The translations under genes and the position numbers were made by a program. The notes under the pieces are model-generated. The model was not told the origin of the DNA, ran no database searches, and saw only the letters and a list, made by a program, of their open reading frames with translations. A stretch of DNA of 64,000 nt from Planctomycetota bacterium (GTDB taxonomy: Bacteria; Planctomycetota; Phycisphaerae; Phycisphaerales; SM1A02), in the NCBI GenBank assembly GCA_022574595.1, contig JACZRS010000002.1:62001-126000 (forward strand), read 5' to 3'. This document shows positions 44,707-61,035 of this stretch, piece after piece (the first letter of the stretch is position 1; every line of letters starts with the position of its first letter).

Positions 44707-45573
44707 TCAGGTTCTCGGAGCTTGTAGCTCAAAAGCGGACGTTTTTGAAGTCTCACTTGGCCTTTCTTGAATCCACATACAAATTTTTCTGAGCCAATAA
44801 ATCCACGCATAAGCTCCGGTAACTGTAAGCCTAAACTCGATCGGCCAAACATCAGGCGTCATTGTCATCCGAGATATTATCTGCTGATCTTTCGATCGCT
44901 TACCGGCATCAGGGCTGAGTGTGTAAACCCTGCGATAACCACATTCAAAGGCTTTACTTATTAGCTTCTCGCTACATACACCATACGGGAATGCAAAGTC
45001 ATATACGCTTTCACCCAAGAGGTTTTCAAGAGCAATCTTGGATTGTATTAATTCACGCTCCACAGCTTCATCTGGCAGCTCTGACAGCCTCGGATGTGTG
45101 GCGCTATGAGATGCGATGCTGCACCAGGTCTCCTTCGAAGCCCGTTTGAGCTGCTCCAGGGTCATGGTGAGCTCCCCGGCATCGGGATGATCATAATCGA
45201 TCTTCCAACGAGGGGTTGATCCCATATTCTCGGTAACTGCAAATACTATTACAGGTATATCCAGCTTGCAGATTATAGGAAGTGCGTTATCCAGTAAATT
45301 CGCAAAAGCATCATCAAACGTAATGCAAACCGCAGGCCTAGCTGCAATTGCTTTATCTTGTAAATGGATTCGATCACAAGAAATAGCTCGCTTACTAATA
45401 TGAGCCATCTGTTTTGCGAACCGATTTTTCTGCTGGGCAGTTACGCCGTGATAGCAAAGCGTTATGACGCGAGTTTTACTTAACCTTCCTCTAGCAGTTA
45501 TCAGCCACCACACAAGGGCGATAGCCAAATAGACTAAACGAACGACAAGTCCTTTGCGATCATATACGTTCAT
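44707..45573 (-). CDS. Polysaccharide deacetylase (NodB family) 1
   Basis: CE4-type metal-dependent N-deacetylase, 288 aa. An N-terminal membrane segment at about 9-23 anchors it. RVITLCYHGV, AVCITFDDAFAN (catalytic Asp and metal Asp) and IASHSATHPRLSEL (metal His pair) are followed by FAFPYGVCSEKL. It probably acts at the cytoplasmic or periplasmic membrane face on N-acetylhexosamine residues. One of three deacetylases in the cluster, 14 bp downstream of the methyltransferase gene at 45588. Confidence 0.9.
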   Translation of the reverse strand: MNVYDRKGLVVRLVYLAIALVWWLITARGRLSKTRVITLCYHGVTAQQKNRFAKQMAHISKRAISCDRIHLQDKAIAARPAVCITFDDAFANLLDNALPIICKLDIPVIVFAVTENMGSTPRWKIDYDHPDAGELTMTLEQLKRASKETWCSIASHSATHPRLSELPDEAVERELIQSKIALENLLGESVYDFAFPYGVCSEKLISKAFECGYRRVYTLSPDAGKRSKDQQIISRMTMTPDVWPIEFRLTVTGAYAWIYWLRKICMWIQERPSETSKTSAFELQAPRT

Positions 45574-45587
45574 GATCTACCCTATCT

Positions 45588-46343
45588 CTAGGCCGCTTGT
45601 GAATATTTATGTAACGGTTTAAACAAACCAACTTGATAAGGAGGCGTAGCATTATTGTGGGTGAGCCTAAACCTTGGACCGCTTGGCCTCTGTTGGTAAA
45701 TCATGCCATAGACCCACACGAAATTATCATCAAGCGCGCGGAAAGTCGCACGGTGCTTAGGATCATTTGTGATATTGACACAGAACATCCCATTAGGCTT
45801 TAGCCATCTTTGATAACGCTTTAGCTGCCCAACTGCTTCTTTAACCGTCACATACTTCAGCACTTCATTAAAAACAATCACGTCAAACAGTTCGTTATCG
45901 GGTGATGAAAACTCACGAAGATCAGCCTGATGAAATGATAGATTGCAGTGCTTCGCTACAGGCCAATTTGCATATTCGCTGTTTGATCGTTCAATTACAT
46001 AATCGCTCAGATCAACGCCTACGTAGCGTTCGATCCCATCATTACTAAGAGCTTGTACTAGATCACCAAAGCCACATCCAACATCAAGCACCGAGTTAGT
46101 GCTTGCTCCGCACATTTTTAGCAGCACGATCGAAGTTTGGTCACGCATAGCGTTACTAATTTGGCCGTTTAGATTTGGCGTTGACATTCGGCCAGATAGT
46201 TCAGCATTCCAATAGTCCGCTGTCTCGTGTTTCTGTTTGTTTCCATTTCTACGCTTTATGGTTTCAGCAATAAATCCTGCACCAATCCCATAGAACACAA
46301 GTCGCATCCAATATCGAATTTTATTTTGAATTGAGATAATCAT
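45588..46343 (-). CDS. Class I SAM-dependent methyltransferase
   Basis: A 251-aa protein with the SAM motif SVLDVGCGFGDLVQAL at about residues 95-110, the acidic residue in YVGVDLSDYV, FHQADLREF and FDVIVFNEVLKYV. The C-terminal part is not typical of a known O- or N-methyltransferase subgroup. The frame is open from 46454, but ATG 46343 follows the previous stop (46376) and starts with a hydrophobic-basic segment. Substrate likely a sugar or lipid-linked intermediate. Ends Gln-Ala-Ala. Confidence 0.85.
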   Translation of the reverse strand: MIISIQNKIRYWMRLVFYGIGAGFIAETIKRRNGNKQKHETADYWNAELSGRMSTPNLNGQISNAMRDQTSIVLLKMCGASTNSVLDVGCGFGDLVQALSNDGIERYVGVDLSDYVIERSNSEYANWPVAKHCNLSFHQADLREFSSPDNELFDVIVFNEVLKYVTVKEAVGQLKRYQRWLKPNGMFCVNITNDPKHRATFRALDDNFVWVYGMIYQQRPSGPRFRLTHNNATPPYQVGLFKPLHKYSQAA

Positions 46344-46375
46344 GATTGGATTTTCTTTAACTGCTTTACCAAACA

Positions 46376-47638
46376 CTAAACTCTTGATCTGATCCACAAT
46401 TTCCACAAGGATCGAGATCGGAACGGCATACGAGGCGCAATTCTGCAATACCACAGTCTGTAATAGAATCGATGAAGAAGATCAGCCATAGTGCAGAACG
46501 CTCGAACTTTCTTTTTTACATCTTGTCGATTAGCTACTATCAGCAGAGAGCGTACGCCTTGCTCTTTCCCACCAAGGCGCAGCTTGTATTCATACCGACC
46601 AGTGCCCGCATCAACTCTGCTTACTCCCTCATCGATCATTCGCTCAAAGAGTTTGCTAAGGCTTACTCGACCTAGTCCCAAAGATTCCCAGGATGATCCT
46701 GTATTGCGAGCAGCAAATCGACAATGGCAAGTATCACCAAACAGCAAACTATATTGACGAGCAATAACTCGGCCATCGGCTTTCAGTTGAAACAAACACA
46801 GCCGACCTATTTCGCTAAGTGCAGCAACTAGAGATCTATTAAATTGCAAGGCATTTGGCCAATCTCCAAAATGGCCTAGCTTGCCTTTGGTTCGCCACTG
46901 TTTTTCATGCATATGCACGAATTTCTCAAACTCCGCTGATGCTTCCGATGGATCTGAAATAACATTCGTTTGAATTTCATAAGTTTTATCTAGTTTCCGC
47001 CATTCTTTTCGCAAATTTGATCGTTGATTCTTTGATAACGATGCGATATAAGCATCAAGAGAATCGGGCAAAGATATGATTGTTTGGCTTGCTTCAGCGC
47101 GATCGCGCGCAATATAAACTAAATCAGATCTTTCTTTTACTGCATCTTTTAAAGCAAGCAAGGTTCCGCTTGAAGCAGATATCGGCCCCGTTGCAAATGC
47201 ATCACATGAACCCCTGCTGAACAATCGATCGATCGTTTCAGTTGCTATTTCTTTGCTCCATGAGCTATTTATTGGCAAATCACAAACTGCCTGGGTGTAG
47301 TCCGAACCAATGATCTTTGCGATTCGCAATTTAGCCCGCCCGAGACGAACTGTATCTATATATAAAGGAACAACTCCTACAAGTTCCTCGCCAACATAGA
47401 ATAGATTGATATGAGCAGCGTCTTCTTGGCCATAGTGATCCCACCAAACTTTACACCAATCAAATGTGCAGTAGATACATGATCCTACAGTCTTGGCCAA
47501 CCTATCCCATTGGCTGCGCAGATGTTGGATCGATTCAAATGACCGAACAACCTCACATGATAACTCATCAACTGAGAGTCTTAAGTGTGAGCTATCGATT
47601 GGGCAGCGATCTAAAGTTGGAACTGGCAGTGCGCTCAC
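46376..47638 (-). CDS. GNAT/CelD-type acyltransferase 1
   Basis: A 420-aa protein with two GNAT-like halves, as in the CelD/BcsL (PF13480) group: FDWCKVWWDHYGQEDAAHIN and LFYVGEELVGVVPLY in the first, and MHEKQWRTKGKLGHFGDW, LKADGRVIARQYSLLFGDT and YEYKLRLGGKEQGVRSLL in the second. These proteins acylate or aminoacylate polysaccharide amines and often accompany exosortase or cellulose-like clusters. A 4-bp overlap joins it to the GT2 gene upstream. Confidence 0.85.
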   Translation of the reverse strand: MSALPVPTLDRCPIDSSHLRLSVDELSCEVVRSFESIQHLRSQWDRLAKTVGSCIYCTFDWCKVWWDHYGQEDAAHINLFYVGEELVGVVPLYIDTVRLGRAKLRIAKIIGSDYTQAVCDLPINSSWSKEIATETIDRLFSRGSCDAFATGPISASSGTLLALKDAVKERSDLVYIARDRAEASQTIISLPDSLDAYIASLSKNQRSNLRKEWRKLDKTYEIQTNVISDPSEASAEFEKFVHMHEKQWRTKGKLGHFGDWPNALQFNRSLVAALSEIGRLCLFQLKADGRVIARQYSLLFGDTCHCRFAARNTGSSWESLGLGRVSLSKLFERMIDEGVSRVDAGTGRYEYKLRLGGKEQGVRSLLIVANRQDVKKKVRAFCTMADLLHRFYYRLWYCRIAPRMPFRSRSLWKLWIRSRV

Positions 47639-48660
47639 CAGTTTGGCTCCTTACCCGTTAAGTGATACCGAACCGCAGCTGCGGATTGCTTGGCTTTATG
47701 TGCTGAGCGTTCACCAATACCAAGCGCTGCCCAAATAAGCCACCATAACATTCGAATTAACATAGTTGTAATAAACAGGAGTTTGCAAAGCGCCCAATGC
47801 GTAAATCCTAAATGTTTACGGTGAAACAGCAGCAAGCTCTTTTGGATTTGCACATACATTCGTACGCTTGCTTGTTTAGTGCTCTTGCTGCCGCCATCAA
47901 CGTGTAGAATTCTGCCAACCGGCGCAAATACGCAGCGCCAACCAGCTGCACTGAACCTGTAGCACCAATCCGCCTCTTCAGCAAAGACAAAGTACTCTTC
48001 GTCCATAAATCCTACTTCTTCCAATGCTTCTCGCCTTACAAGCATGAACATGCCTGATACAACTTCGACATCTCGTACGTTACGTCGATCCCACGGCCCA
48101 TACGCTGCTCTGCCAGTAATTCGTGATAATGGTTTCCATGCAAGCGCACCTGACACCCACATAAGAGTGTTTAATATTGAAGGGTATCTAAAGCAGGTTC
48201 GCTGAATTGTTTCAGCGTCTTCCATAACCTGACAACCAACTACACCGACATCAGGATTATCATTTAAGTAATTTATGGAATTGGCGAAAGCGTCATCCAG
48301 AACAACTGTGTCCGGATTAAGCAGTAGTACGAAGCGGCCGGTTGCGATTTCCATGCCTTGGTTATTTGCACCGGCAAACCCACGATTTGTATCATTGGCT
48401 ATTAGTCTTACCTGTGGAAATTTAGTTGCAATTTCCTTTACTGAATTATCTGTTGATGCGTTATCAATCACGATAACTTCAGCATGTAATTCACCTAAGC
48501 GGTCATAGACAGATTCCAAGCACTCGATGATTACCTGCTGCGTATTCCAATTTACAATAACAATGGAAAGATCAAGCACGCTAGTCGCAGACTGTTGCGC
48601 TGGTTCTTTGTGCCTACTTTGTAGTGGTTTATCTAGAGACAGAGTAGTATCAAGCTGCAC
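47635..48660 (-). CDS. GT2-family glycosyltransferase (rhamnosyltransferase-like)
   Basis: Inverting GT-A glycosyltransferase of 341 aa. LSIVIVNWNTQQVIIECLES and AEVIVIDNASTDNSV are the GT2 start; the metal-binding region is FVLLLNPDTVVLDDAF (DxD-like), and the catalytic acidic stretch is DEEYFVFAEEADWCYR, common in rhamnosyltransferase-type members. A late hydrophobic segment (TTMLIRMLWWLIWAALGI) anchors it to the membrane. Overlaps the upstream deacetylase by 11 bp. Confidence 0.9.
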   Translation of the reverse strand: MQLDTTLSLDKPLQSRHKEPAQQSATSVLDLSIVIVNWNTQQVIIECLESVYDRLGELHAEVIVIDNASTDNSVKEIATKFPQVRLIANDTNRGFAGANNQGMEIATGRFVLLLNPDTVVLDDAFANSINYLNDNPDVGVVGCQVMEDAETIQRTCFRYPSILNTLMWVSGALAWKPLSRITGRAAYGPWDRRNVRDVEVVSGMFMLVRREALEEVGFMDEEYFVFAEEADWCYRFSAAGWRCVFAPVGRILHVDGGSKSTKQASVRMYVQIQKSLLLFHRKHLGFTHWALCKLLFITTMLIRMLWWLIWAALGIGERSAHKAKQSAAAVRYHLTGKEPNW

Positions 48661-49366
48661 GTTTACAATTCTCCCCAGTTAATTCACTAAGTGTGCACAC
48701 TGTCCAGCCATGCTCATCCGCTGCATCGAGCAATTTGCTAGTAGATTCAAGCATGAACTCAGCTCGCTGATCGCTACGGTCAAAGTCATGAAGCAACACG
48801 ACTCCCCCACCATCACGTTTAACTTTTATTGCTGCGGTATCAGTTTCAGGCAATACTTCTGCATCATCTCCCGATCTAATAGTCCACCAACCTAATGGCG
48901 CTTTTCGCGATTTTATCCTTGCCCAGGTTAGTAGAGTCAATTTCCCAAAGGGAGGCCGAAACCAACCATCTTGAGGAACCCAACGAGCCAGTGATTGGTA
49001 GCCTTCATCAATGTCATGCACACTTCGCCAAGGCGAGGTTCGCCAAGCGTTTAGATGTTGCTGTGTGTGACAAGCAATTTCATGTCCTTGGCCTGCTATT
49101 TCATCAACCAACTCAGGATTATCTGTAGCACGAAAACCGGTAAGAAAAAAAGTAGCCCTTGCGTTTCTTAATTTTAAGAGATCAAGCAATTGAGGCGTAA
49201 GTTTTTCGCCAGGCCCATCATCGTATGTAAGCACTAAACTTTTTGTAGCAATACATAGATTGCGCAGCTGCACTTCCTGCAATTTGCGTGCAGCCATAGG
49301 CGCTAGATACCAGCTACCTGCAGCTGCTAATGCCGAACCCCCTGCAATCAATGCTGTCCCAATCAT
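48650..49366 (-). CDS. Polysaccharide deacetylase (NodB family) 2
   Basis: A 238-aa CE4 deacetylase with an N-terminal hydrophobic anchor (MIGTALIAGGSALAAAGSW). The motifs are canonical: LVLTYDDGPGEKLTPQ, EIACHTQQHLN (metal His pair), FRPPFGKLTLLTWAR and VVLLHDFDRSDQRAEF. It probably removes acetyl groups from N-acetylated sugars of the polymer or intermediate. Ends Arg-Ala-Ala. One bp separates it from the GNAT gene upstream. Confidence 0.92.
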   Translation of the reverse strand: MIGTALIAGGSALAAAGSWYLAPMAARKLQEVQLRNLCIATKSLVLTYDDGPGEKLTPQLLDLLKLRNARATFFLTGFRATDNPELVDEIAGQGHEIACHTQQHLNAWRTSPWRSVHDIDEGYQSLARWVPQDGWFRPPFGKLTLLTWARIKSRKAPLGWWTIRSGDDAEVLPETDTAAIKVKRDGGGVVLLHDFDRSDQRAEFMLESTSKLLDAADEHGWTVCTLSELTGENCKRAA

Positions 49367-49367
49367 G

Positions 49368-50633
49368 TTATTTTGCAGCCACCTTTGAGGTCTTTGCCGC
49401 GTTAGATAAGCGCAATCGCCAATACTTTTTAATTAACTTTTTCAGTCCAACATTCTCGAATATGTAAGAACCGTAATTGTTAATCTTTGTAATTCCCTTA
49501 TAGATACTCCGCGATACAAACGCTTTAGAAGTCTTTGCATAGAGATAGACAGTCGTTTCTTCAAAGTTGTTTGAGCCATACATACGTTTGTAAGGTGCAT
49601 CACCGAACCCGTAATCAATACTATCTATATTGGCTTCACAAAGATCTTGTATTACGCGCACAAGCAAGACTTGCCCAGGCGATAGCTGTTTGTATTGAGG
49701 TAGGAAAGCAGTAGATAGCAGGTTATAAGTATTTGCGTATACCGCACCCAATTGAAACGCAATCGGTTTGCCATCACATTCAAGCCAATATGATCGCAAT
49801 CTCCCAGACGCAGCTTCTAAGTTGATAAGTTCACGATGCAGCGGCGTATCGCTAAACCCACCCAGCCCTGCTTGATATGTTTGCGAAACAATCTCAGCAG
49901 CACCTATAACCAACTCATCACATTGCACAGGTTGATCGAATATGCGAAGCTGCACATTACCAGAAAAGTGCTCAACAAGCAGCCTATCTGTACGACGCAT
50001 ATTATATCGATGCTTGCGAGAAAATCGCGCGATAGTTTGATCATACGAGCCACGTGTTAGTTCAAATTGCCAATGCAGATTAATACTGCTGCAATCAATT
50101 CGGCTCTTGATCACTTCATCACTATTAAGAGCTTGTGACAATGGCTCTTCAAGCGGAAGATGATTGATCGTGATTTGATCAAATTGCTTTTCTACAAGTA
50201 GAGATCGCAAATGCTTAGTTACTTCGCTTATCGCAATCTCGCTTGAATCACTCAGCACTCCGCCATACACAATATCAAGACTCTTTAGTACCGGTGAAGG
50301 TACGCGCAGATAACCAATGCGAAAATTCCCGGATCTAAATTGTGATCGTCCAACAATCATTGCGCGCGCTTTGCCATCAATTCTTAACAAAGCAACATAA
50401 GGTTTGGATTTTTCACCTAGAACTTTTACCGTTGTGACAAAGCGATCGATATCTGCATTGGGCGATATTACCGTTGATTGCTCGCGGAGCATATCCCAAT
50501 CGCTGCGCAGTGCTAGTATTTCATCAATTGTAGATACATACTTGATCGAGGTTGCGTAATTGCGGACCTGATGAACCTCTTTCGAAGATTCAGCTCTGTC
50601 AATAGTCAGAGGTTGTGTGACAGTTGTTGTCAT
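49368..50633 (-). CDS. GNAT/CelD-type acyltransferase 2
   Basis: A 421-aa protein with the double GNAT fold of the CelD (PF13480) group: FSRKHRYNMRRTDRLL and YWLECDGKPIAFQLGAVYANT, then SIDYGFGDAPYKRMYG, are typical. Likely N- or O-acylates sugars exposed by the deacetylases. It overlaps the Wzy-like gene upstream by 4 bp (50630-50633), so the two are probably translated together. The basic C-terminus (KKYWRLRLSNAAKTSKVAAK) may aid membrane contact. Confidence 0.85.
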   Translation of the reverse strand: MTTTVTQPLTIDRAESSKEVHQVRNYATSIKYVSTIDEILALRSDWDMLREQSTVISPNADIDRFVTTVKVLGEKSKPYVALLRIDGKARAMIVGRSQFRSGNFRIGYLRVPSPVLKSLDIVYGGVLSDSSEIAISEVTKHLRSLLVEKQFDQITINHLPLEEPLSQALNSDEVIKSRIDCSSINLHWQFELTRGSYDQTIARFSRKHRYNMRRTDRLLVEHFSGNVQLRIFDQPVQCDELVIGAAEIVSQTYQAGLGGFSDTPLHRELINLEAASGRLRSYWLECDGKPIAFQLGAVYANTYNLLSTAFLPQYKQLSPGQVLLVRVIQDLCEANIDSIDYGFGDAPYKRMYGSNNFEETTVYLYAKTSKAFVSRSIYKGITKINNYGSYIFENVGLKKLIKKYWRLRLSNAAKTSKVAAK

Positions 50634-52054
50634 ATTGAAAGCGTCGGTCCACTTTTCATTGCCAGACCTGGTTCACCAATAACATATTCATCAGATTGCG
50701 GTTCAACACTACGGCTTGATGCACGCGATATTCGCCTTTCCCGATAACGGCTCTGCAGTATCTGCAATCGTGAAGAACTTGGAGATAAGGATGCGCTAAT
50801 CGCTAAGACCAAGTACCAAATCATTATAATTTGTCCGAAATATGACACCGCTAAGAAGCAAACACAATGCACAAATATGGATGCACCAATCATCCAAGCT
50901 GTGATTTTGTGGAAACGCGTCTTGCTTGAGTATTTCTGTATAAGGCCGGCCCCACGAAACCCAAGAAAGATCATGGCCAGGAATAATATAAAAGTAATAA
51001 GCCCACCTTCGAGACCTTCAAGTACATATTGGTTTGTAATTGCATCGAAACCGTGACTCCAAATATCGATATACGATCTGGTACCCATTAGCCACCACAA
51101 ATCGAAACTTTCAACGAAACCGTCAATCATTTTGTATCTATACCAACCAGTAGACCCTTGATTGAATCGAACACGGGTCATAAGATGCCAAATTGGATTT
51201 GTCATAACGATCTGAAGAGAGATCGCGCATGCAACAATCGCCCATTGGATCCATCTCATATATCCACGCAATGGGAAGAGTGCAGCTGCAACAATTGCAG
51301 CTAAGACCGCAGAAATAGGTGAATCCGATGCTGTTGCATTGATTACTATTAGCGAAGCAACAATTCCAATGGGTGCAAGCCAACGTATTCTGCTGCTATG
51401 CCACCATAAAGCACCTATTAAGGGTATCATCGCTGCCCAGAAACACCCCGCTAAGATTGGGTGAGGGAATGGTCCGCGGCAGCGAAGCTTTCCATCACGA
51501 ATCGTAGTTACCTCAGGTACTCCGCCTAGTACCGCAAACATATTTCTACCAGTAAATTGTTCAATCAGGAATACTACTGAGACGGGAACACTGATAACCG
51601 CTGCTGCTATCATCAGCCATTCCAAGTCTTTCCAGCTGCGAATCAGCATCCTGAACAAAAAATACATACCAATCGCATCATACGTAAGTCCAAGGCGATA
51701 AATAAGCGCTTGTACTGTTCCTTCACGAAACGCTACAACTACTGTTGCAATTACCGTCCACATCACAACTACTGAATCAAGACCCTTCCATTTGAAGCCA
51801 CGCATCTCTCCATAGAGAAACAGGCGGCACCAACCAAAGATAATCAGCAACCTAATAAGGTTAAAATCCAGCGTTGCAATTACAATTCGCTGCGCAGGAG
51901 AGATAAAGCAAGCCATGATAAGCATAGGTATTAGCGCGTAACGCCTAGGCACTACCAGCATACCAATACCCAGCAGCAATACTGCAATGAGTCCAATAGG
52001 GTGTAGAGTTGTTTGATCGTACCAGGATTGCATAGAATAGTGCCAGGGTTGCAT
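50630..52054 (-). CDS. Wzy/O-antigen-ligase-like polymerase A
   Basis: An integral membrane protein of 474 aa with about ten to twelve hydrophobic segments and a large loop around residues 165-225 containing FLIEQFTGRNMFAVLGG and CRGPFPHPILAGCFWA, the conserved region of O-antigen polymerase/ligase proteins. It aligns by eye along most of its length with polymerase B (53240-54691), sharing QTTLHP, VPRRYAL, QRIVIATLDFN and HPI.AG.FWA. ATG 52054 is chosen because GGGGGGA (52068-52062) precedes it and it matches the paralog's N-terminus; the frame is open to 52090. Confidence 0.88.
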   Translation of the reverse strand: MQPWHYSMQSWYDQTTLHPIGLIAVLLLGIGMLVVPRRYALIPMLIMACFISPAQRIVIATLDFNLIRLLIIFGWCRLFLYGEMRGFKWKGLDSVVVMWTVIATVVVAFREGTVQALIYRLGLTYDAIGMYFLFRMLIRSWKDLEWLMIAAAVISVPVSVVFLIEQFTGRNMFAVLGGVPEVTTIRDGKLRCRGPFPHPILAGCFWAAMIPLIGALWWHSSRIRWLAPIGIVASLIVINATASDSPISAVLAAIVAAALFPLRGYMRWIQWAIVACAISLQIVMTNPIWHLMTRVRFNQGSTGWYRYKMIDGFVESFDLWWLMGTRSYIDIWSHGFDAITNQYVLEGLEGGLITFILFLAMIFLGFRGAGLIQKYSSKTRFHKITAWMIGASIFVHCVCFLAVSYFGQIIMIWYLVLAISASLSPSSSRLQILQSRYRERRISRASSRSVEPQSDEYVIGEPGLAMKSGPTLSI

Positions 52055-52138
52055 AGCAATATCCCCCCAATCGAAGCAACTATGATCCACTTGTTAATGT
52101 TAAAGTGATATCTAATTGCTGTGAGATTTTACAGACGG

Positions 52139-53179
52139 TTAAGCTGCTCTTTTTAGCCGTCTGTAAAAATCCTCCGCCTGCCTCATTATTGCATATCTAA
52201 TATCAGAAGGCGAAGATTCAAACGGACCGGGCGCTTGGACATCAAGGCCCCGAAGTCCTTTTTTAAAATTATAAACACCAACGTTTTTATCTGGATCGAT
52301 TCCACCCAGATCGTAATAGCATTGCCCGCGCTCATGCGCCATCTCTATTGAGTGCCATTGCAGCAAATATACAGCGTAATTGCGAAGCCCTTCTTCATCT
52401 GCTGCAAGAATTAATGGCACACACGTGTTACCTATCATGCTGCATATCAAGCCTGCAACTGCATCTCCTTCATGATTGACTGTGAAAGCAATGAACCGAT
52501 CATCGCCTGTCAGTTGCGTTTGAAGATCCGCATAAAACTCTGCATTCAATTCAGCGCTAAATTTCTTTCGTCCTAAAAGCTGTTCATACAAGCAGCATAC
52601 AGTTCTAAAATGCTCCGATGTTTCTCCCTTGGTTATTTCAAAGCCTTTTGTTTCTGCACGTCGAAGATTTCTTCGCCAATACTTTGAACAGGTAGCTCGA
52701 ATATCCCCGAGAGAACGATTTATATCTAATAAGAAAGTGCGATAAGAGCGAGTACGATCTGAGGTATTAAAGCCAGCCTCTTCAAACACATTCGTAGCTT
52801 GCTCATTCCAATCTGGACTTCCAATTGGAGCAAGTATTCTCAGCGCTAGCCCTCGTTTATCTACATACTCACTTTGCAAAGCTTTCAAACATTTTTCAAG
52901 TCGCTTGACATCATCATCATTACCGAATCTCGTAAGTGGCCCACCTGATATATAAGCGATTCCACCACCAATTACAGGTAATGAGCGAATCCTAATGTTT
53001 GCTAGGCCTATCAATTCCTCTCCAGATTGAATCGCGACATGCTCACACTTTGCGCTTCGCATTTCAGCCAGCGCGTGAGAATATTCCCACGCCTGCTGGT
53101 AATTATTATCCAGGAATCTCGTAGCCAGAGCTTGCCACTGATCCTTCTTGACTGGATTTATTGTGTCGCTAAATTGCAT
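52139..53179 (-). CDS. FemAB-type acyltransferase
   Basis: A 346-aa GNAT-superfamily protein of the FemAB/FemX group. RSYRTFLLDINRSLGDIRATC, SKYWRRNLRRAETKGFEIT and CYYDLGGIDPDKNVGVYNFKKG are typical of FemAB proteins, which pass amino acids from aminoacyl-tRNA to amino groups of peptidoglycan or polysaccharide. The family is also found with exosortase-linked polysaccharide sets. It sits between the two polymerase genes. Ends Arg-Ala-Ala. Confidence 0.88.
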   Translation of the reverse strand: MQFSDTINPVKKDQWQALATRFLDNNYQQAWEYSHALAEMRSAKCEHVAIQSGEELIGLANIRIRSLPVIGGGIAYISGGPLTRFGNDDDVKRLEKCLKALQSEYVDKRGLALRILAPIGSPDWNEQATNVFEEAGFNTSDRTRSYRTFLLDINRSLGDIRATCSKYWRRNLRRAETKGFEITKGETSEHFRTVCCLYEQLLGRKKFSAELNAEFYADLQTQLTGDDRFIAFTVNHEGDAVAGLICSMIGNTCVPLILAADEEGLRNYAVYLLQWHSIEMAHERGQCYYDLGGIDPDKNVGVYNFKKGLRGLDVQAPGPFESSPSDIRYAIMRQAEDFYRRLKRAA

Positions 53180-53239
53180 TGATTATGCCTTGCGATAAGT
53201 TTAAATTATTATGAGCTAACAACAAACTATTGTGCAGCG

Positions 53240-54691
53240 CTAAGTACCAAAGATGATCGGTTCGGATTGCGAAGAAGCCATATATCTCTTCATTAATCTC
53301 TTGTGTGATAACTTAGCTACTTGCCGTCTCTTATGAGCTAGCGGTGTTAAGCTACCTATGCAAGCGATTGTTATATACCAAACAAAAATCGTTTGGCCAA
53401 AGTTAGAAACACCCATGAAGACAGAACAATGAACCAATAACGAAACTCCTAGCGCCCACGCCATGGCTAAACGACCTGAAGAATACCGAAATTGTCTATA
53501 TTTTCTGCGATATCTTGTTGAAGCTCTTGGCATCCATAATTGCATCAGTCTTGAGCGTCTTTGGTTTTCTACGTGCAAAATCTTCCCAACACCCCAAAAT
53601 GCAGTAACTATTATTCCAAGGAAAATGCAAAGAGTGAGCAAGCCACCTTCTACGCCTTGGAATATGTATTCATTTGTTACTGCGTCAAATCCGTACTCCC
53701 ACCAACTCGAATAGGTCTCGGTACCAATCAACCACCATTCATTTATGTTTAGAAAGAACTCATCAATTAATTTATAACGGTACCAACCGGTTGAACCTGA
53801 TACTAATTGCACACGAGCAAGCAAATGCCAAATTGGATTTACCATGAACAACTGCAGAACTAAGAGCCCTAATACAGTTCCCCATCGAAGGCAGGCCATC
53901 CATCTTCGTAGAGGAAACAGTGTTGCGGCAATCACTCCTGCAATAACCCCGCCAAGCGGGGTTGCGGATGAGCAAGTTATAACGACAACCATTGCGCCTG
54001 CAACACCCAGCAATGCTAAGAATCGATTCCAGCCACGATACCACCAAAGCGCAGCCATCAGTGGCATTAGCGCAGCCCAGAATGATCCTGCAATAATTGG
54101 ATGTAGGAACGGCCCGCGACACCTCATTCTTCCATCTCGGATGGTTGTAAATTCTGCAACACCGCCTAAGCTAGCAAACATATTTCGCCCAGTGCTATGC
54201 TCAATTAGAAATGCTATGGCAACGGGCAAGCTAATTATTGCAGCCCACTGAGCGAAAGTACGCAAGTCGCAGAAACCGTGGACTAATATGCGAACCAGGA
54301 AATATAGCCCAACTGCATCATATAACAATCCCAACCTTGTGATAAACGATTCAAAATTCGAATGCAGCAAAGTGGCAACAACAGTCGAACAAATTACCCA
54401 TGCCAAGACTACGCTGTCTAATCTCTTCCAGCGCCAACCAGCATATTCGGCGCGCAATATGACCCTAGTCCATCCCACCAACACCATTAGGCGCAAGAAG
54501 TTGAAATCCAACGTGGCTATTACAATTCGCTGAACTGGCCCGACAAAACATACCAAGACAAGAGTCGGAACTAGCGCGTAGCGCCTGGGAACAAGAATCG
54601 TTGCAGCAGCGCATAGCAGAAGCAAAAACACCCCAAGCGGATGAAGCGTCGTTTGATTGTACCAGTTGTTTAATACCGTTTCTGCAATCAT
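53240..54691 (-). CDS. Wzy/O-antigen-ligase-like polymerase B
   Basis: A 483-aa integral membrane protein homologous to polymerase A. The same features occur at the same places: WYNQTTLHPLGVF, VPRRYALVP, VQRIVIATLDFNFLRL, IEHSTGRNMFASLGGVAEFTT, and RCRGPFLHPIIAGSFWA. It probably either polymerises a second polymer or attaches the polymer to a different acceptor. The spacer to the methyltransferase gene upstream is about 64 bp. Confidence 0.88.
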   Translation of the reverse strand: MIAETVLNNWYNQTTLHPLGVFLLLLCAAATILVPRRYALVPTLVLVCFVGPVQRIVIATLDFNFLRLMVLVGWTRVILRAEYAGWRWKRLDSVVLAWVICSTVVATLLHSNFESFITRLGLLYDAVGLYFLVRILVHGFCDLRTFAQWAAIISLPVAIAFLIEHSTGRNMFASLGGVAEFTTIRDGRMRCRGPFLHPIIAGSFWAALMPLMAALWWYRGWNRFLALLGVAGAMVVVITCSSATPLGGVIAGVIAATLFPLRRWMACLRWGTVLGLLVLQLFMVNPIWHLLARVQLVSGSTGWYRYKLIDEFFLNINEWWLIGTETYSSWWEYGFDAVTNEYIFQGVEGGLLTLCIFLGIIVTAFWGVGKILHVENQRRSRLMQLWMPRASTRYRRKYRQFRYSSGRLAMAWALGVSLLVHCSVFMGVSNFGQTIFVWYITIACIGSLTPLAHKRRQVAKLSHKRLMKRYMASSQSEPIIFGT

Positions 54692-54755
54692 ATTTATTAC
54701 ACTATCGAATCAATTCTTTCGATATCGTGGAAAACATTAAGGTGAAAGTTGTAAA

Positions 54756-55448
54756 TCAAGCTGCTTTGCGAATTTCCATTTGGTTGAAAAATCCACTGTG
54801 GACTATCCAGGATTTCACGACTCCACAAAATCGTTCAGCTACGAAAATGTGATCTGGAAACAATTTCACAAGCTCTCGCTTTGTCATCAAACGAACTTCT
54901 CTAACAATATCTTCTGCTTCTGCTTCATCACGACAAGGTCCGCGCCAACCACAACGAGTCTTTTTAATAATTGCTTTGCGCAACCAAATCGGCAGCCACT
55001 GCCAACCTACTATGTGAAAGTGTGGTTCGATGGGAAACCAATAATTCGGAGTTTGAAGCCAAATGGCTCCAGCAACTCGCTTCATCTCGCAAGCCATTTT
55101 CGCCTGGCTTTGTAAATCTCGAAGATGTTCAATAACAGAATTGCTAAACGCAATATCAAAGCTGTTATCTGGGAATTGACTAAGGTCTGTAACATCTCCA
55201 AACACGGGTTGAAAATTATTTGTACCAGTAACCTTCGGCTGAATGTTTACACCTGTAATATGAACGTCACTGCGTTCACCCCAACCTCGTTGTTCCCAAA
55301 ATTCAGGTGTGCCCCCTAGATCAATAATCCGAAGTGGACGAGGCATATTGGCTGCTAATCTTTCAAAAAGTTCAAAGCGTTTGGTTCGCATCCTATTAGA
55401 AAGCGACATGGGATTCTCAACCGCGGAAAGTGATTGTATGAATGACAT
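54756..55448 (-). CDS. SAM-dependent methyltransferase (type 11-like)
   Basis: A 230-aa class I methyltransferase: IIDLGGTPEFWEQRG (SAM loop), DVTDLSQFPDNSFDIAFSNSVIEHL is the strand-4 region. IWLQTPNYWFPIEPHFH and HWVG-like HIVGWQWLP suggest a small-molecule or lipid-linked substrate. ATG 55448 overlaps the stop of the upstream gene as TGATG. Ends Lys-Ala-Ala. The frame extends to 55529 but overlaps that gene. Confidence 0.88.
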   Translation of the reverse strand: MSFIQSLSAVENPMSLSNRMRTKRFELFERLAANMPRPLRIIDLGGTPEFWEQRGWGERSDVHITGVNIQPKVTGTNNFQPVFGDVTDLSQFPDNSFDIAFSNSVIEHLRDLQSQAKMACEMKRVAGAIWLQTPNYWFPIEPHFHIVGWQWLPIWLRKAIIKKTRCGWRGPCRDEAEAEDIVREVRLMTKRELVKLFPDHIFVAERFCGVVKSWIVHSGFFNQMEIRKAA

Positions 55449-56338
55449 CACTCTACCTGCCCTTGTTTGCGTTGAATCCAAAACGATCCGCCATGTGAAG
55501 CAACAGTTGATAATTCTGATGAATTCCAAAGCAGATCTAACACTGTTGATAATTCTGGATCATCAGTAATAAATCTGTTTGCTAAAATAATTTCGTATTG
55601 ATCGCCAAACAAAAGCAAAGCTGCGAGCATGTATTGCTCAGAGTAATAACGATCAATCCAACGCTGTGGATAGTCATAAGGCAGCCAGATATCGTGAAAA
55701 TGTACTATTACACCTGGCTTGATGCGAGGCAGAACGTCCATGAAAATAACCTGAACATCAGAATTCATTAGCACCCTATGAGAACTGTCAACGAACAAGA
55801 TGTCGCCCGCCTCAAGCGATTCAAACACTGTTAAATCAACAGTTTCTAAAGGACTTCGGTGAACTTCATCACACAACGCATCAATTTCCGCACGAGGCTG
55901 AGGGTCAATTGAGACAATGCGGCAAGGTACATCGCAATCGGTTACTGCACGTCGAGCAAATCGTGTCGAGAAACCCGATCCAATTTCAAGATAGATAGAT
56001 GGCTTGCCAATTGCGATCATACTATATAATACAGCAGCATCTAAGCCGGGAAACCATGGGTTATCCCAATGCGGTAATCCGCTATCAGACGAAACTTCAT
56101 CTGCATGAACCGGTATCTCGCACAAGCTACTCTTAAGTTGCAAGATATCCGCAAGGCAGCGATGGTAGTTGTCGCGCTCCTTCTCAATCATTTCATAAAG
56201 AGCTTTATGCGGCGGTTTGCCGTACCCATACCTTGGACCAGGTTGCGGCGGATCATCAATGAGAATCACAGGCTGATTCTGCATCATTTTCCATAGAGCT
56301 TTACCAGCCTGTATCGTTGGTTGAAATGCTTGATTCAT
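55448..56338 (-). CDS. Methyltransferase family 24-like protein
   Basis: A 296-aa protein with a class I SAM fold: YLEIGSGFSTRFARRAV (SAM loop), VSIDPQPRAEIDALCDEVHRS, GDILFVDSSHRVLMNSDV and VHFHDIWLPYDYPQRW. The pattern matches methyltransferase family 24 (PF13578), which often methylates sugars or phenolics. Substrate unknown. Stop/start overlaps the next gene by one base (TGATG), so the two methyltransferases are probably translationally coupled. Confidence 0.85.
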   Translation of the reverse strand: MNQAFQPTIQAGKALWKMMQNQPVILIDDPPQPGPRYGYGKPPHKALYEMIEKERDNYHRCLADILQLKSSLCEIPVHADEVSSDSGLPHWDNPWFPGLDAAVLYSMIAIGKPSIYLEIGSGFSTRFARRAVTDCDVPCRIVSIDPQPRAEIDALCDEVHRSPLETVDLTVFESLEAGDILFVDSSHRVLMNSDVQVIFMDVLPRIKPGVIVHFHDIWLPYDYPQRWIDRYYSEQYMLAALLLFGDQYEIILANRFITDDPELSTVLDLLWNSSELSTVASHGGSFWIQRKQGQVE

Positions 56339-56386
56339 TCAGTTCCTATCCCAAATATTTAGGCGCGTAGATAACACAAGCATTGC

Positions 56387-57736
56387 TCATGCTGCCTTTG
56401 CTCTAACTTCACTTTCATATTGATCTGAAACAAACTGCAGATGCGTTGGCAATTGGGCATCTTTATGTACAAAGGGTTTAATTCTTATTTGTGACATTAG
56501 CCCTCGGGTGATAATCCGCTTTACCGTTCCCAATACGGATCTAACTTTTTCTTGCAAAGTTAGTTTTGCCCACCAATAGCGGAACATTGCAAAGCCACGA
56601 TATTTTGGTGCAGGAACGCCCATCAATCGACATACAAGAATTCGCGCCCAAACAGATCCGCGCCCCCGCAATAAATTTGGTTGCGACATTGGAAGCACCG
56701 ATGGCTCAACTCGTTTTAGCGATAAATAACCTGCTTCCATAGCTTCACGTAATATTCGCTGACCCTTTAATGTGCGTACTATAATTAGTGATCGGCCGGG
56801 ATCGTTGGATTTCACTTTGAGATACCAGGGATCACCTACCGCAATATCTGCAAATTCACCCGTGTGATCTGCACAAACATGACAACGCCATTGCTTGTCA
56901 TTTGTAAGAACCTCACCCCAGGATTCTTCATAACTTAAACTGCGTGTTTCGATAATTCCATTTCTAAGATATTTTGCTGTTGCCTTTCCCGGCCAGCCAT
57001 TTCCTCGATAACGCAAATCCTTTACTGATGAAGGGTCTTCAATACTCATTCTCTTTAGCAAGTTGATAGTTGCATTAGTTGTGGGAGTCCCTGCACAGAA
57101 AAACGCAATTGTTAAGCCAAGCTTTTCTTTGAGTTTGGGGCGCAATTTAGCTGCACTATTTGCTGCTGCAACATCACAGGGTTTGCCAATAAATACACAA
57201 GCAGCAGGCGCTTCCTCAATTAAGTGTAATCCGTCACAAGGACTAGCAGGTGCATAACGCGAACCTGTTGCACTTAATATCTCATGGCGTGTGGTGCTGA
57301 GAACTGTTTCGTTAAATATTGGTGCATCCGCGCGAGCTTTTATGTGCAGCACCCCATGCATATTTGCCTTTTCAATACATGCTAATGAAATGGCGCTAGC
57401 TGCTCCTCCACTTGAACCAGAAAAACGTATAGCTTCATCCGTTGCATACCCTTCCCATACTTCAAGTACAGGCCCCCAACCCGGAGTTAATGATTGAATA
57501 AAACTTGCTTCTTTTCGTTCAAATGTATGCTCAAGCCCCACACCTGGACATACATTAAGTGCTTCTTTTTCAAGCATAGAATTACGCGATGATGATTTGC
57601 GCAAAGGCCTTCGTCCATGATCTAAATCATCAACCATCTCGATCGATTCAGGATCTATATACGCACAAGCACCACAACCACTACATAGTTGGCGCGATAC
57701 AACATCATCGATATTTTTTATTACCCGCAATCTCAT
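56387..57736 (-). CDS. FrhB-like Fe-S protein (coenzyme F420 hydrogenase beta-subunit family)
   Basis: A 449-aa protein. The start has LCSGCGACAYID plus a later Cys (NVCPGVG), an Fe-S cluster-type cysteine set; later RCHVCADHTGEFADIAVGDP is the FrhB C-terminal signature. Many polysaccharide clusters carry such proteins (for example in the WcaK/colanic acid-like context), where they may work as a reductase or carry a flavin, independent of F420. The role in this cluster is unknown. Ends Lys-Ala-Ala. Confidence 0.85.
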   Translation of the reverse strand: MRLRVIKNIDDVVSRQLCSGCGACAYIDPESIEMVDDLDHGRRPLRKSSSRNSMLEKEALNVCPGVGLEHTFERKEASFIQSLTPGWGPVLEVWEGYATDEAIRFSGSSGGAASAISLACIEKANMHGVLHIKARADAPIFNETVLSTTRHEILSATGSRYAPASPCDGLHLIEEAPAACVFIGKPCDVAAANSAAKLRPKLKEKLGLTIAFFCAGTPTTNATINLLKRMSIEDPSSVKDLRYRGNGWPGKATAKYLRNGIIETRSLSYEESWGEVLTNDKQWRCHVCADHTGEFADIAVGDPWYLKVKSNDPGRSLIIVRTLKGQRILREAMEAGYLSLKRVEPSVLPMSQPNLLRGRGSVWARILVCRLMGVPAPKYRGFAMFRYWWAKLTLQEKVRSVLGTVKRIITRGLMSQIRIKPFVHKDAQLPTHLQFVSDQYESEVRAKAA

Positions 57737-57762
57737 AATCTTGCATTAAACTTACGTGCATA

Positions 57763-58605
57763 TTAATAAAGCAATTCTTGTCGTTTTAACCTCATTATTG
57801 CTCTTCGAATCTTTTTTCGCAGTCCAAAGTACTGTCTGGGATCCGAAGGGGTTGTATGTAGTGCACGTGCAATTTTTCGTAAATGAGCCGTCCACTCGTT
57901 AATACTGCGAACGCCACGAAATTGTGCAGACAGCGGCAAGTGTTCCGCTAGATCCGCATCGCTTCGCAGCATCGTGTTCACTGATCGCGGATCATCCATG
58001 TGATCGATCGGGATCAAAGGCAGATACCAACCGTTAACCCAACCTGCTGCGGCAATTCTCATGCAATAACTTGTAAAGCCCTTATCTTTAGGCGGTAATA
58101 AACCAAGATGATCGATGCACTGGCGTTTCATCACCACGCCGCTTCCTTGCACCCAGGGATTTAGCATCACTTTATGGCCGCCTGTGAAGCTACGGATCTT
58201 AGGCTCTGCTAGCTGCATATCGAAATCCTCAACGGGAAAATGCCAACACGCAAGAACGCCGAACTTTGGCTCATCGTAATGAGCTTTACTAAGTTTCTGC
58301 CCCCAACCTTCACTTACCACACAGTCGTCAGCTATAACGCTCAGCAGATCGCTGTCAGCATTCTTAAATAGCCAATTCGTCGGCTCACGGACAAGTCCAT
58401 TCTCAGAGCTGTGATGGAATCGATGAAACCGAGGGTGATTTTCATAGCTGCGCACGACATCAAGTGTTTCAGCATGATCTCCATTGTGCCAAAGCCAGAC
58501 GCGCATTGAGTCATCACACGATTCTAGCAACCGCGACAACGAAAGCCTTGTGTACTCAGGTCGGTTATACGTGATCATCAAGATATCGAGAGTAAGATTC
58601 GACAT
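57763..58605 (-). CDS. GT2-family glycosyltransferase
   Basis: A 280-aa GT-A enzyme: LDILMITYNRPEYTRLSLSR is the nucleotide-binding start, VIADDCVVSEGW the DxD-like metal site, and NPWVQGSGVVMKRQCIDHLG the acceptor region. The C-terminal helices are basic (KKIRRAIMRLKRQ), suiting peripheral membrane binding. It lies between the deacetylase at 58665 and the FrhB-like gene. Confidence 0.9.
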   Translation of the reverse strand: MSNLTLDILMITYNRPEYTRLSLSRLLESCDDSMRVWLWHNGDHAETLDVVRSYENHPRFHRFHHSSENGLVREPTNWLFKNADSDLLSVIADDCVVSEGWGQKLSKAHYDEPKFGVLACWHFPVEDFDMQLAEPKIRSFTGGHKVMLNPWVQGSGVVMKRQCIDHLGLLPPKDKGFTSYCMRIAAAGWVNGWYLPLIPIDHMDDPRSVNTMLRSDADLAEHLPLSAQFRGVRSINEWTAHLRKIARALHTTPSDPRQYFGLRKKIRRAIMRLKRQELLY

Positions 58606-58664
58606 GCTTGCTTCCTTTTAATGACTCAACTTCATCCAGTAACTGCCAAGGTGCGAAGTACAGC

Positions 58665-60077
58665 TCATGCGACCGATTTCACAACGCTCGAATACCATCG
58701 TCTACGACTAGCGGAAAACAGAGTGGAATTATGGACCAGCAAAGAGAAATCACCCGCAAACATTGCACATCGCTCACTGAGTTGTTTGATCTTTGCAGCC
58801 GCATTCTCCGGTACAAGTTTCATGTAGTTCAATAATGCAGTATCGGATGCGATCAATGGCCGCTCACGCAACTTTTGAGGTCGGCGTGATTGAAGATCGA
58901 AGACGGGATACTCGTAGCACGTTCCACATCGGAACCCCGCTTGCTCAGCAAATCCCAATGTACTGTCATAGCTAGCTCCAATGCGCTCCCAGTTTTGCCA
59001 CGTTCTTGGATTCTGCCAGCGGAGAAAGTGTTGCCGCCCACCGCATTGATCAATCTCTACGCCCTGTTTGTTGGCTAATGTCATAAGCGAATCGAATTCG
59101 CTTTGGGTTTGCTCAAAGTTATCACAAGTTTCATAGCTTGGATGAAAACCAATCTCATGACCTCGTTCACTCACAGTCTTTAGGAGAGTGCCTATGAACG
59201 GCTCTTCCGTCGCAGCATCCGGATCGTACACAGAATGTGTTGCGCCAGCCATGAAATAAAACGCTGACTTCACGCCATGCAAATCGCTTACATTCATCAG
59301 GAAATCGTGCGTGTTGTAGGGATCGTGGGAATCGTCCCCCAAACGGCATCGGTAGAAATAGCTGCTTATTCTTCGAGTAGCTAGTCCCGGATTCCTGCGA
59401 CCGTACAGATCATCCCATGATCTCCTCATGACGCCTCGCCATGAATCTCTCCTGGAGTGCATGAGCGGCAAATCGACATCATGACTTAGAAAAAGGCGAT
59501 AGTGTCGCTCGGCGCGCTTAATGTTAGGGTAAAGGCGCGATAACGCTGACCAAAGAACCTCAAGATACTCATTCACCAACGGACGTTCAAGAAATTCTTC
59601 ACGAGAAGCGATCGATTGTTCGGCTGGAAACCGGCCGTGCGAATCACGCTGTTTTGATGCTGCCTCTTCGTAGCGCGTGAGCATGAAGAACGCGCTTCCG
59701 AAGATGTCTATCCCAATGTTGATCGCATCATCAGACTCTTTGAAGTACGAACCATCCTGCATAGGCCGGCCGAACAACACCGGGAGGTTGTTGTCAATCG
59801 TCTTGGTATCGGTCCACTGTGAAGGCACACGACACTGCTGTAAGGGAGAAGTTGGTTGGGATGATGGATTCAACCAATCGTGCTCTGGCGTTTGGAAAAA
59901 TACATCAGCGATCCTTAATTGCCGGCCGAACGGCTCATCTTCACCTACTATGTGAACCTCTTGAAGGTCGTGTGGAACGAGTTTATACTCCAGGCCTAGG
60001 AATTCACGCAGCAATACATCCAGAATATACCGGCGCTCCGGCAGGTATCGATCATTGGTTCTAACAATTAGCGTCAT
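58665..60077 (-). CDS. Polysaccharide deacetylase-like protein with extra N-terminal domain
   Basis: A 470-aa protein. Residues 1-200 form an N-terminal domain (DVLLREFLGLEYKLVPHD, AFFMLTRYEEAASK) of the kind found in deacetylase family proteins that carry a DUF7033-like domain. The CE4-like catalytic part starts at YRLFLSHDVDLPL (metal Asp) and has HEIGFHPSYETCDN, where the second metal His is not obvious. It may be an active variant or a binding protein. The third deacetylase-like gene in the run. Confidence 0.8.
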   Translation of the reverse strand: MTLIVRTNDRYLPERRYILDVLLREFLGLEYKLVPHDLQEVHIVGEDEPFGRQLRIADVFFQTPEHDWLNPSSQPTSPLQQCRVPSQWTDTKTIDNNLPVLFGRPMQDGSYFKESDDAINIGIDIFGSAFFMLTRYEEAASKQRDSHGRFPAEQSIASREEFLERPLVNEYLEVLWSALSRLYPNIKRAERHYRLFLSHDVDLPLMHSRRDSWRGVMRRSWDDLYGRRNPGLATRRISSYFYRCRLGDDSHDPYNTHDFLMNVSDLHGVKSAFYFMAGATHSVYDPDAATEEPFIGTLLKTVSERGHEIGFHPSYETCDNFEQTQSEFDSLMTLANKQGVEIDQCGGRQHFLRWQNPRTWQNWERIGASYDSTLGFAEQAGFRCGTCYEYPVFDLQSRRPQKLRERPLIASDTALLNYMKLVPENAAAKIKQLSERCAMFAGDFSLLVHNSTLFSASRRRWYSSVVKSVA

Positions 60078-60081
60078 ATTA

Positions 60082-61035
60082 TCACGCTCGTCTTGTCACT
60101 TCATCGCGGACAGTTGATGGCGCTTGAATCATTGACATAGCGGAGATCCGTATGCGTAGAGGTCTGCTCACATCTGCCGTTGTCAGACACACGGATTTCG
60201 CTGAGCGGTACGCAAATGAAGCAACTGATGCTAACAGCGATGCTCGCGGATCAAATCCCCAGTTTGGGTAATGCTTATTCATAACGTCACCGCAATAGTG
60301 TGAAAAGACGCGATGTTGCGCCGGCGACCAATGCCGCCATGGCGTCGGATTTTTCCACCACGCACCTCTATCAGTGGAACTTGATCTATTCGAATGTGAA
60401 ACCTCCGCAAGATCTTCCTCTTTTAACTCGAGGAATTGTGCGATACTGTGCCAATCACGTTGCAGATTTTCAAGTTGCACACAGCGTGTTTCAAGATTCA
60501 GCTTCTTTGACGTTTGAGCGATCAGCGTATTTGTATAAGCCCAATACCAACAACATCGCGCGAACGAATCCAACTTCTCCCATTTACTCGTAGACATTTG
60601 ACCAACTTGATCGGCACGTATTCGATTGGTAATCCATTCGCTTAGCTCTTGATGTCGCAATTGCGCCTCGTTGGGGTGATACCAATATCGATGGTGCATC
60701 GAAGTTACAGCATCACGTCCATCGCGAATAACCCAAAGATATTTAGCGCCAGGGAAAGCTTCAGCGAGCGCGGGCAGCACAAACGCCAGCCTTTGGTTTG
60801 ATTCACCACTGATGCGCTCACCACCGCGCTGGACACAACCTCTTGTCTCACGCAGCAGCGAAACCATCTCATTCTGAGGCATAGTTCCCACCACATAAGA
60901 TGTCGCCTCGCGCAGAAGCGTCGGCTTCATCTGATGAGTAATGCTACAACCACGAATACTACTGAGCATATTCGCGCATGTTGTAGTGCCGCTGCGTCCG
61001 GTACCTAGCACAAATAGATATTGCTTAAATTGCAT
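60082..61035 (-). CDS. Sulfotransferase (PAPS-dependent)
   Basis: A 317-aa P-loop sulfotransferase. The 5'-phosphosulfate loop is GTGRSGTTTCANML and the 3'-phosphate region is IRDGRDAVTSMHHRY; CWYWAYTNTLIAQ and HWSPAQHRVF follow as in the family. It would transfer sulfate from PAPS to a hydroxyl or amine of the polysaccharide or its lipid intermediate, making the polymer acidic. No cysNDC-type genes are in the window. Only 4 bp separate it from the deacetylase-like gene. Confidence 0.9.
   Translation of the reverse strand: MQFKQYLFVLGTGRSGTTTCANMLSSIRGCSITHQMKPTLLREATSYVVGTMPQNEMVSLLRETRGCVQRGGERISGESNQRLAFVLPALAEAFPGAKYLWVIRDGRDAVTSMHHRYWYHPNEAQLRHQELSEWITNRIRADQVGQMSTSKWEKLDSFARCCWYWAYTNTLIAQTSKKLNLETRCVQLENLQRDWHSIAQFLELKEEDLAEVSHSNRSSSTDRGAWWKNPTPWRHWSPAQHRVFSHYCGDVMNKHYPNWGFDPRASLLASVASFAYRSAKSVCLTTADVSRPLRIRISAMSMIQAPSTVRDEVTRRA

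Follow-up and report, generated by a model that had tools for sequence, protein, structure and literature searches.

Why would a single polysaccharide operon carry several deacetylases alongside several acyltransferases? The question is raised by a 64,000-nucleotide stretch of a Planctomycetota genome (contig JACZRS010000002.1, positions 62,001 to 126,000; hereafter the window). In this stretch, a first-pass annotation of positions 44707-61035 had proposed that an exopolysaccharide is N-deacetylated, then N-acylated or aminoacylated, and O-sulfated. Our analysis somewhat favors a two-cassette expansion of the common planctomycete polysaccharide cassette, in which cytosolic N-deacetylation would be followed by N-acylation or aminoacylation, with an accessory sulfation/VimE block added. 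Deacetylation followed by acylation is plausible, and the pairing of the genes is conserved well above chance, but the sequence does not settle N- versus O-sulfation or an aminoacyl versus an acetyl donor.

Deacetylases and acyltransferases of the operon

As annotated, positions 44707-61035 form one unidirectional run, with all open reading frames in the expected places on the minus strand. Intergenic gaps in the run are mostly below 65 bases, or the starts overlap; the exceptions are 255 bases between the deacetylase gene CE4a and the PssD-like gene and 1177 bases between the sugar transferase gene and a DUF368-like gene. The run is part of a longer, probably Wzx/Wzy-type polysaccharide operon, which extends down to CapD at 33702 and about 6 kb past position 64000. 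All three deacetylases and all three acyltransferases of the first-pass annotation were present, which would make up two, perhaps three, acyl-swapping sets. Two of the deacetylases were identified by PF01522 and the third by a VimE-family match and its fold, while PF13480 was found twice and PF02388 once among the acyltransferases.

44707..45573, minus strand: CE4a, polysaccharide deacetylase of a PgaB/IcaB-like subgroup (PF01522, 66 bits; motifs TFDD and HSATH)
48650..49366, minus strand: CE4b, NodB/PdaB-like deacetylase (PF01522, 90 bits; motifs TYDD, HTQQH, RPPFG and LLHD)
58665..60077, minus strand: accessory VimE-like CE4-type deacetylase (DUF7033; NF053580, 162 bits)
46376..47638, minus strand: GNATa acyltransferase (PF13480, 89 bits; ortholog in relative G036, 56%)
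49368..50633, minus strand: GNATb acyltransferase (PF13480, 88 bits), 1 base from CE4b
52139..53179, minus strand: FemAB-type acyltransferase (PF02388 FemAB, 84 bits; weak sequence match to solved FemX, E 0.007)

Both CE4a and CE4b retain the catalytic Asp/His metal motifs of the NodB-type domain, as judged from Pfam and motifs. Model matches were to PgaB/IcaB for CE4a and to PdaB/NodB for CE4b, which is not an HfsH equivalog (32 bits versus a cut-off of 400 on NF050820). CE4a has one N-terminal membrane helix with flanking net charges of +1/+4, more positive on the C-terminal side. These charges, together with the soluble-looking CE4 proteins near FemAB genes in relative G059 and in a second locus of the same genome (the C18 locus), favor a cytosolic deacetylase. 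No N-terminal signal was found in any window acyltransferase. Among these, only the protein at 52139 belongs to the FemAB family by sequence (PF02388), a match that favors an aminoacyl donor, while PF13480 is compatible with various donors for GNATa and GNATb. A PDB sequence search with GNATb returned nothing useful.

Pairing of the two enzyme types in related genomes

We then searched 80 relatives with the polymerase-like protein, took the surrounding regions, and mapped all operon proteins by tblastn (G000 denotes the 4.1-Mb genome of the window, C10 its contig, other G numbers the relatives, and L031 the own-genome stretch beyond the window edge). The closest syntenic relative was G036:C106, whose operon genes are identically ordered between UpxY and CapD, with identities of 50-75%; chance assembly of this gene order is therefore excluded. 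The G036 cluster is without AsnB, FkbM, the sulfotransferase, the VimE-like gene, and GNATb, of which the last has paralogs in the C18 locus. Thus, the state common to the window and G036 is two deacetylases and two acyltransferases, and three of each is particular to the window. The first-pass annotation had offered conserved co-occurrence of the three deacetylases with the three acyltransferases as a check; the pairing is conserved, but the full set is not.

About one CE4 and one acyltransferase were found in G066, G074, G023, and G059, the last with an extra CE4-like piece, while the C18 locus has one CE4 and three acyltransferases. Neither type was found in G019, G012, and others. Across the 81 genomes, a CE4-type gene lay within 6 kb of 20 of the 33 PF13480 genes scoring at least 40 bits, compared with ~0.3 expected under random CE4 placement, and such pairs were found in 13 of 20 genomes. 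Adjacent or near pairs occurred in the single-polymerase loci of G066, G074, G059, and C18, as well as in other loci (G030:C4 and G003:C89), and in several loci the two genes are direct neighbors.

The C18 locus is a second, exosortase-bearing exopolysaccharide locus (G000:C18:8455-37817; L033, L034), whose three acyltransferase genes are of the PF13480/FemAB types and which also holds two sulfotransferases and a polymerase-like paralog.

A proposed route and the case for free amines

In the scheme that we propose, the common cassette (polymerase, GT2, one CE4, one FemAB/GNAT, and PssDE) would have been partly doubled. The CE4 enzymes would strip N-acetyl groups from amino-sugar residues of a nucleotide- or lipid-linked precursor in the cytosol, after which the GNAT/FemAB enzymes would attach a different acyl or aminoacyl group to the freed amine. 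The unit would also receive methyl, pyruvyl, and O-acyl groups, Wzx would flip it, and the two Wzy-like proteins would polymerize it. The accessory block (VimE-like deacetylase, sulfotransferase, FkbM, GNATb, and AsnB-type amidotransferase) would add lineage-specific decoration. We infer the substrates, donors, step order, and compartment, as well as a single polymer that receives all the decorations. Amino-sugar supply is plausible, given CapD, a possible source of an N-acetylamino sugar, at the end of the run and WbpB/D/E-like genes elsewhere in the genome.

Several observations weigh against this scheme. The topology of CE4a and CE4b was guessed from charges alone, and deacetylation by a CE4 in the periplasm could not come before acylation in the cytosol; likewise, the polymerase assignment of the two Wzy-like proteins comes from topology and position alone. 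The random-placement null is generous, as polysaccharide genes cluster for other reasons anyway. The window set is not one conserved pathway, since G036 is without the sulfotransferase, the VimE-like protein, FkbM, and one acyltransferase. The G019 cluster keeps GT2a, GT2b, PssDE, GT4, the polymerase, and FrhB, and neither a CE4 nor a PF13480 match is listed for its contig. Loss of most modifiers from clusters that keep the glycosyltransferases, which the first-pass annotation regarded as refuting, was accordingly seen in this distant relative, but not in the nearest one, G036. Furthermore, CE4-PF13480 pairing is not obligatory: in G006 and G048, the cluster has a CE4 gene, but its contig has no strong PF13480 gene.

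These two clusters also agree with another explanation, in which the deacetylases simply leave free amines, giving a cationic polymer as with PgaB/IcaB or HfsH, and the acyltransferases act elsewhere or re-acetylate, with no coupled replacement. The PgaB/IcaB matches of CE4a and the PdaB/NodB matches of CE4b fit it as well. However, such pairs of CE4 and acyltransferase genes are found in different genera far more often than expected by chance, and we consider this explanation possible but unlikely.

The VimE-like deacetylase

The third deacetylase gave an AlphaFold model (50 homologs) with a pLDDT of 95, whose best PDB matches were polysaccharide deacetylases, with human NDST1 lower down. The CE4 metal-motif residues D200, D202, H312, and H350 are invariant. 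No membrane segment was found in this protein, and a PDB sequence search with it returned nothing useful. It is not a VimE equivalog, scoring 162 bits versus a cut-off of 440 on the NCBIfam VimE model. We scanned for the family with a profile made from three sequences, an eight-sequence alignment being too diverse for scanning. Few genomes of the phylum have a member of the family (9 of 392), and the 178 loci found belong to many phyla, a pattern suggestive of horizontal acquisition.

With our home-made profile, a PF13480-type gene was detected within 1.5 kb of the VimE-family gene at 26 of 80 loci; the other 54, the majority, have no detected VimA-like gene nearby, which is in line with deacetylases that leave free amines, although this count comes from one such profile. 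An AsnB-type gene lay within 5 kb at 11 of the 80 loci. When the genes directly upstream were scanned independently with Pfam, 19 of 64 had PF13480 and 2 of 64 had Sulfotransfer_3. All 26 VimE-adjacent acyltransferases, although from many phyla, form one family that resembles the neighbor of VimE in G037. None of the three window acyltransferases joins this family (15 bits or less, versus 105-274 bits within it), where the comparison used the G037 representative and not the Porphyromonas gingivalis VimA sequence itself. The VimE-family deacetylase of the window thus lacks its typical acyltransferase partner.

These data bear on a Wbp/Vim-type pathway, in which the VimE-like enzyme would deacetylate UDP-2,3-diacetamido-glucuronate, a VimA-like enzyme would add an amino acid, and AsnB would make a uronamide. 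The VimE-family match and fold, the AsnB-type gene in the same operon, and a WbpB/D/E-like operon (L170:1318-4205, contig C23) with a UDP-sugar dehydrogenase (L167:2900-4273), both below equivalog cut-offs, speak for such a pathway; this WbpB/D/E-like operon could supply substrate for the VimE-like protein. However, none of the window acyltransferases is of VimA type, and the match to the VimE model falls far short of the equivalog threshold, so that we regard this pathway as very improbable. We also considered the VimE-like gene, AsnB, and GNATb, all absent from G036, as an inserted Wbp/Vim trio; this was rejected for GNATb, as the VimE-adjacent acyltransferases are a separate family.

Alternatively, the VimE-like deacetylase and the adjacent sulfotransferase might be a bacterial counterpart of animal heparan sulfate N-deacetylase/N-sulfotransferase (NDST) that removes the acetyl group of an amino sugar and sulfates the freed amine, giving an N-sulfated polymer. 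This idea comes from their 4-base adjacency, their joint absence from G036, the NDST1 match of the model, and the Sulfotransfer_3 genes upstream in two loci. We give it a slim chance. Only one detectable relative of the window sulfotransferase was found near a VimE gene (L101, 33 bits).

The G037:C11 contig (L069), which holds VimE and VimA-like genes, has stretches that share 77% DNA identity with a Halorhodospira locus (L120), possibly because it was transferred recently or is a contaminant.

Comparison with known systems

The first-pass annotation knew of no described pathway with this gene set. For the core chemistry this was wrong. Replacement of acetyl by Ser or Gly through VimE/VimA on the Wbp/Vim linker sugar has been described in Porphyromonas gingivalis/Tannerella (PMC7468200). 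The Caulobacter holdfast enzymes HfsH (CE4) and HfsK (FemAB-like GNAT) have been proposed to act in one polysaccharide pathway (PMC5362036). In exosortase loci, a FemAB-type gene adjoins a polysaccharide deacetylase and an asparagine synthase (PMC7468200), and PF01522 has also been reported as a neighbor there (PMC1569441). Exchange of acetyl for an amino acid has been proposed for both the holdfast and the exosortase loci. No published cluster with the exact gene set was found in the open literature, which is weak evidence. The novelty lies in the doubling of the cassette and the addition of a VimE-like/sulfotransferase block in a planctomycete; the cluster looks like a bigger form of a common local design and not like something different in kind.

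Each known system matches in part. The Wbp/Vim pathway shares a VimE-family deacetylase, an AsnB-type amidotransferase, and the remove-and-replace logic, but the window is without a VimA-type acyltransferase, its genome has the Wbp-like genes on another contig, and it encodes a polymer operon, not a linker sugar. The holdfast system likewise combines a CE4 with a FemAB-like acyltransferase, but hfsK is located outside the hfs locus (PMC8449245), one deacetylase is described, and there is no sulfotransferase. In Actinoplanes missouriensis, Wzx/Wzy clusters hold sulfotransferases and a methyltransferase (wps-1) or a deacetylase and acyltransferase-domain proteins (wps-3) (PMC13390465); unlike in the window, the features are split over separate clusters, with fewer in each. 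The XrtA/PEP-CTERM (EpsH exosortase) loci have the same gene mix of FemAB, polysaccharide deacetylase, and amidotransferase. An exosortase is present in nine homologous relative clusters and in the C18 locus, where it lies between the GT4-type gene and Wzc, and somewhere in 80 of 81 genomes. In contrast, no exosortase was found in G000:C10 62001-160000 (98 kb), the nearest on the contig being at 177539, and the XrtA models scored far below their cut-offs (FemAB TIGR03019, 32 versus 260 bits; deacetylase TIGR03006, 44 versus 276; amidotransferase TIGR03108, 269 versus 817). With an exosortase in homologous clusters but none in these 98 kb, the window cluster is thus a sister form of the PEP-CTERM-type exopolysaccharide locus.

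If acyl replacement does take place, the make-up of these operons would amount to a modular code from which the amide decoration of polysaccharides in Planctomycetota could be read. By comparing relatives that have no, one, or two deacetylase-acyltransferase pairs, the amide pattern of a polymer could be traced to single genes, and orphan GNAT/FemAB acyltransferases in surface-polysaccharide loci would gain a testable substrate.

Predicted polymerization and export genes

We judge on balance that the locus is probably a Wzx/Wzy-type exopolysaccharide operon of a planctomycete, in which a Wzx flippase, an initiating sugar transferase, and a Wzc-type co-polymerase are all present.

62696..64000, minus strand, start past the window edge: Wzx flippase (PF13440, 187 bits)
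53240..54691, minus strand: WzyA, polymerase/ligase-like membrane protein (~11 hydrophobic segments; 67% in G036)
50630..52090, minus strand: WzyB, polymerase/ligase-like membrane protein (~10 hydrophobic segments; 49% to WzyA)
38847..41150, minus strand: Wzc-like tyrosine kinase/co-polymerase (PF13614, 36 bits; position and length)
37723..38850, minus strand: initiating polyprenyl sugar-phosphate transferase (PF02397, 202 bits)
47635..48660, minus strand: GT2a glycosyltransferase (PF00535; present in most relatives)
57763..58605, minus strand: GT2b glycosyltransferase (PF00535, 39 bits)
43957..44451, minus strand: PssD-like glycosyltransferase subunit (NF041549, 73 bits)
43400..44023, minus strand: PssE-like glycosyltransferase subunit (NF041548, 108 bits)
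41179..43464, minus strand: GT4-type glycosyltransferase (PF13692, 45 bits), with a C-terminal hexapeptide/nucleotidyltransferase-like part (nucleotidyltransferase matches)

Neither WzyA nor WzyB has a Pfam or NCBIfam match. These paralogs, separated by the FemAB gene, had been missed previously, as had the continuation past 64000. Because G036 keeps the double polymerase and G023 has two adjacent copies, this state is probably old and stable. The tandem paralogs, with the two CE4/acyltransferase pairs, could also mean that two loci have merged and that more than one polymer is made, each simply decorated; relatives that have a single cassette, with just one polymerase and a lone pair, are in keeping with this. 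Yet Wzx, the initiating transferase, Wzc, and the PssDE pair each occur only once in the operon, and the double polymerase is shared with G036 and G023; we therefore find merged loci quite unlikely.

Decoration and sugar-supply genes

The remaining genes include those beyond the window edge, where the start of Wzx, an AsnB-type amidotransferase, and the last three features below are located.

45588..46454, minus strand: S-adenosylmethionine (SAM) methyltransferase MT25 (PF13649, 63 bits; G036 56%)
54756..55529, minus strand: SAM methyltransferase MT11 (PF08241)
55448..56338, minus strand: SAM methyltransferase MT24 (PF13578)
60082..61035, minus strand: accessory sulfotransferase (PF13469, 38 bits versus a cut-off of 27)
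61066..62100, minus strand: accessory FkbM methyltransferase (TIGR01444, 80 bits, above cut-off)
62138..62680, minus strand: WbbJ-like hexapeptide O-acyltransferase (PF00132; NF007240, 73 bits)
56387..57736, minus strand: FrhB/FdhB-like protein (PF04432, 114 bits)
33702..35177, minus strand: CapD/FlaA1-type nucleotide-sugar dehydratase (PF02719, 337 bits; G036 64%)
L031:2185-3918: second asparagine-synthase-like protein, 577 aa (weak similarity to asparagine synthase)
L031:3915-5237: CsaB/WcaK-type pyruvyl transferase
L031:5414-6106: UpxY/RfaH-type antiterminator, heading the operon (homologs in several relative loci)

The annotated sulfotransferase was thus recovered. Of the three or four methyltransferases claimed, three lie in the interval (45588, 54756, and 55448), but the fourth, FkbM, is 30 bases outside; the O-acyltransferase is in the operon, but also outside 44707-61035. 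Hydroxyl groups may be the targets of the sulfotransferase and FkbM. The sulfotransferase family is abundant across the genomes surveyed (12 in the own genome), so its presence by itself means little. The 577-aa protein is kept in G036 and occurs near an O-acyltransferase homolog in G049, G054, G058, and G062.

An FrhB/FdhB-like gene was found in six mapped loci (window, G036, G066, G059, G074, and G019), all six with a pyruvyl transferase, which occurred in no mapped locus without FrhB. This co-occurrence suggests that the two proteins are functionally linked. Both genes are also present in a VimE-family locus of a Myxococcales metagenome-assembled genome (L115).

Elsewhere in the genome, a stretch at L170:6281-11411 (G000:C23) holds two sulfotransferase genes in alternation with genes for two unannotated proteins, neither of which matches a Pfam or NCBIfam family. 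Of these four genes, three overlap by 4 bases, and the unannotated proteins bear deacetylase-like motifs (QFDVDG and QHDVDN; GYHNN and GYHQN).

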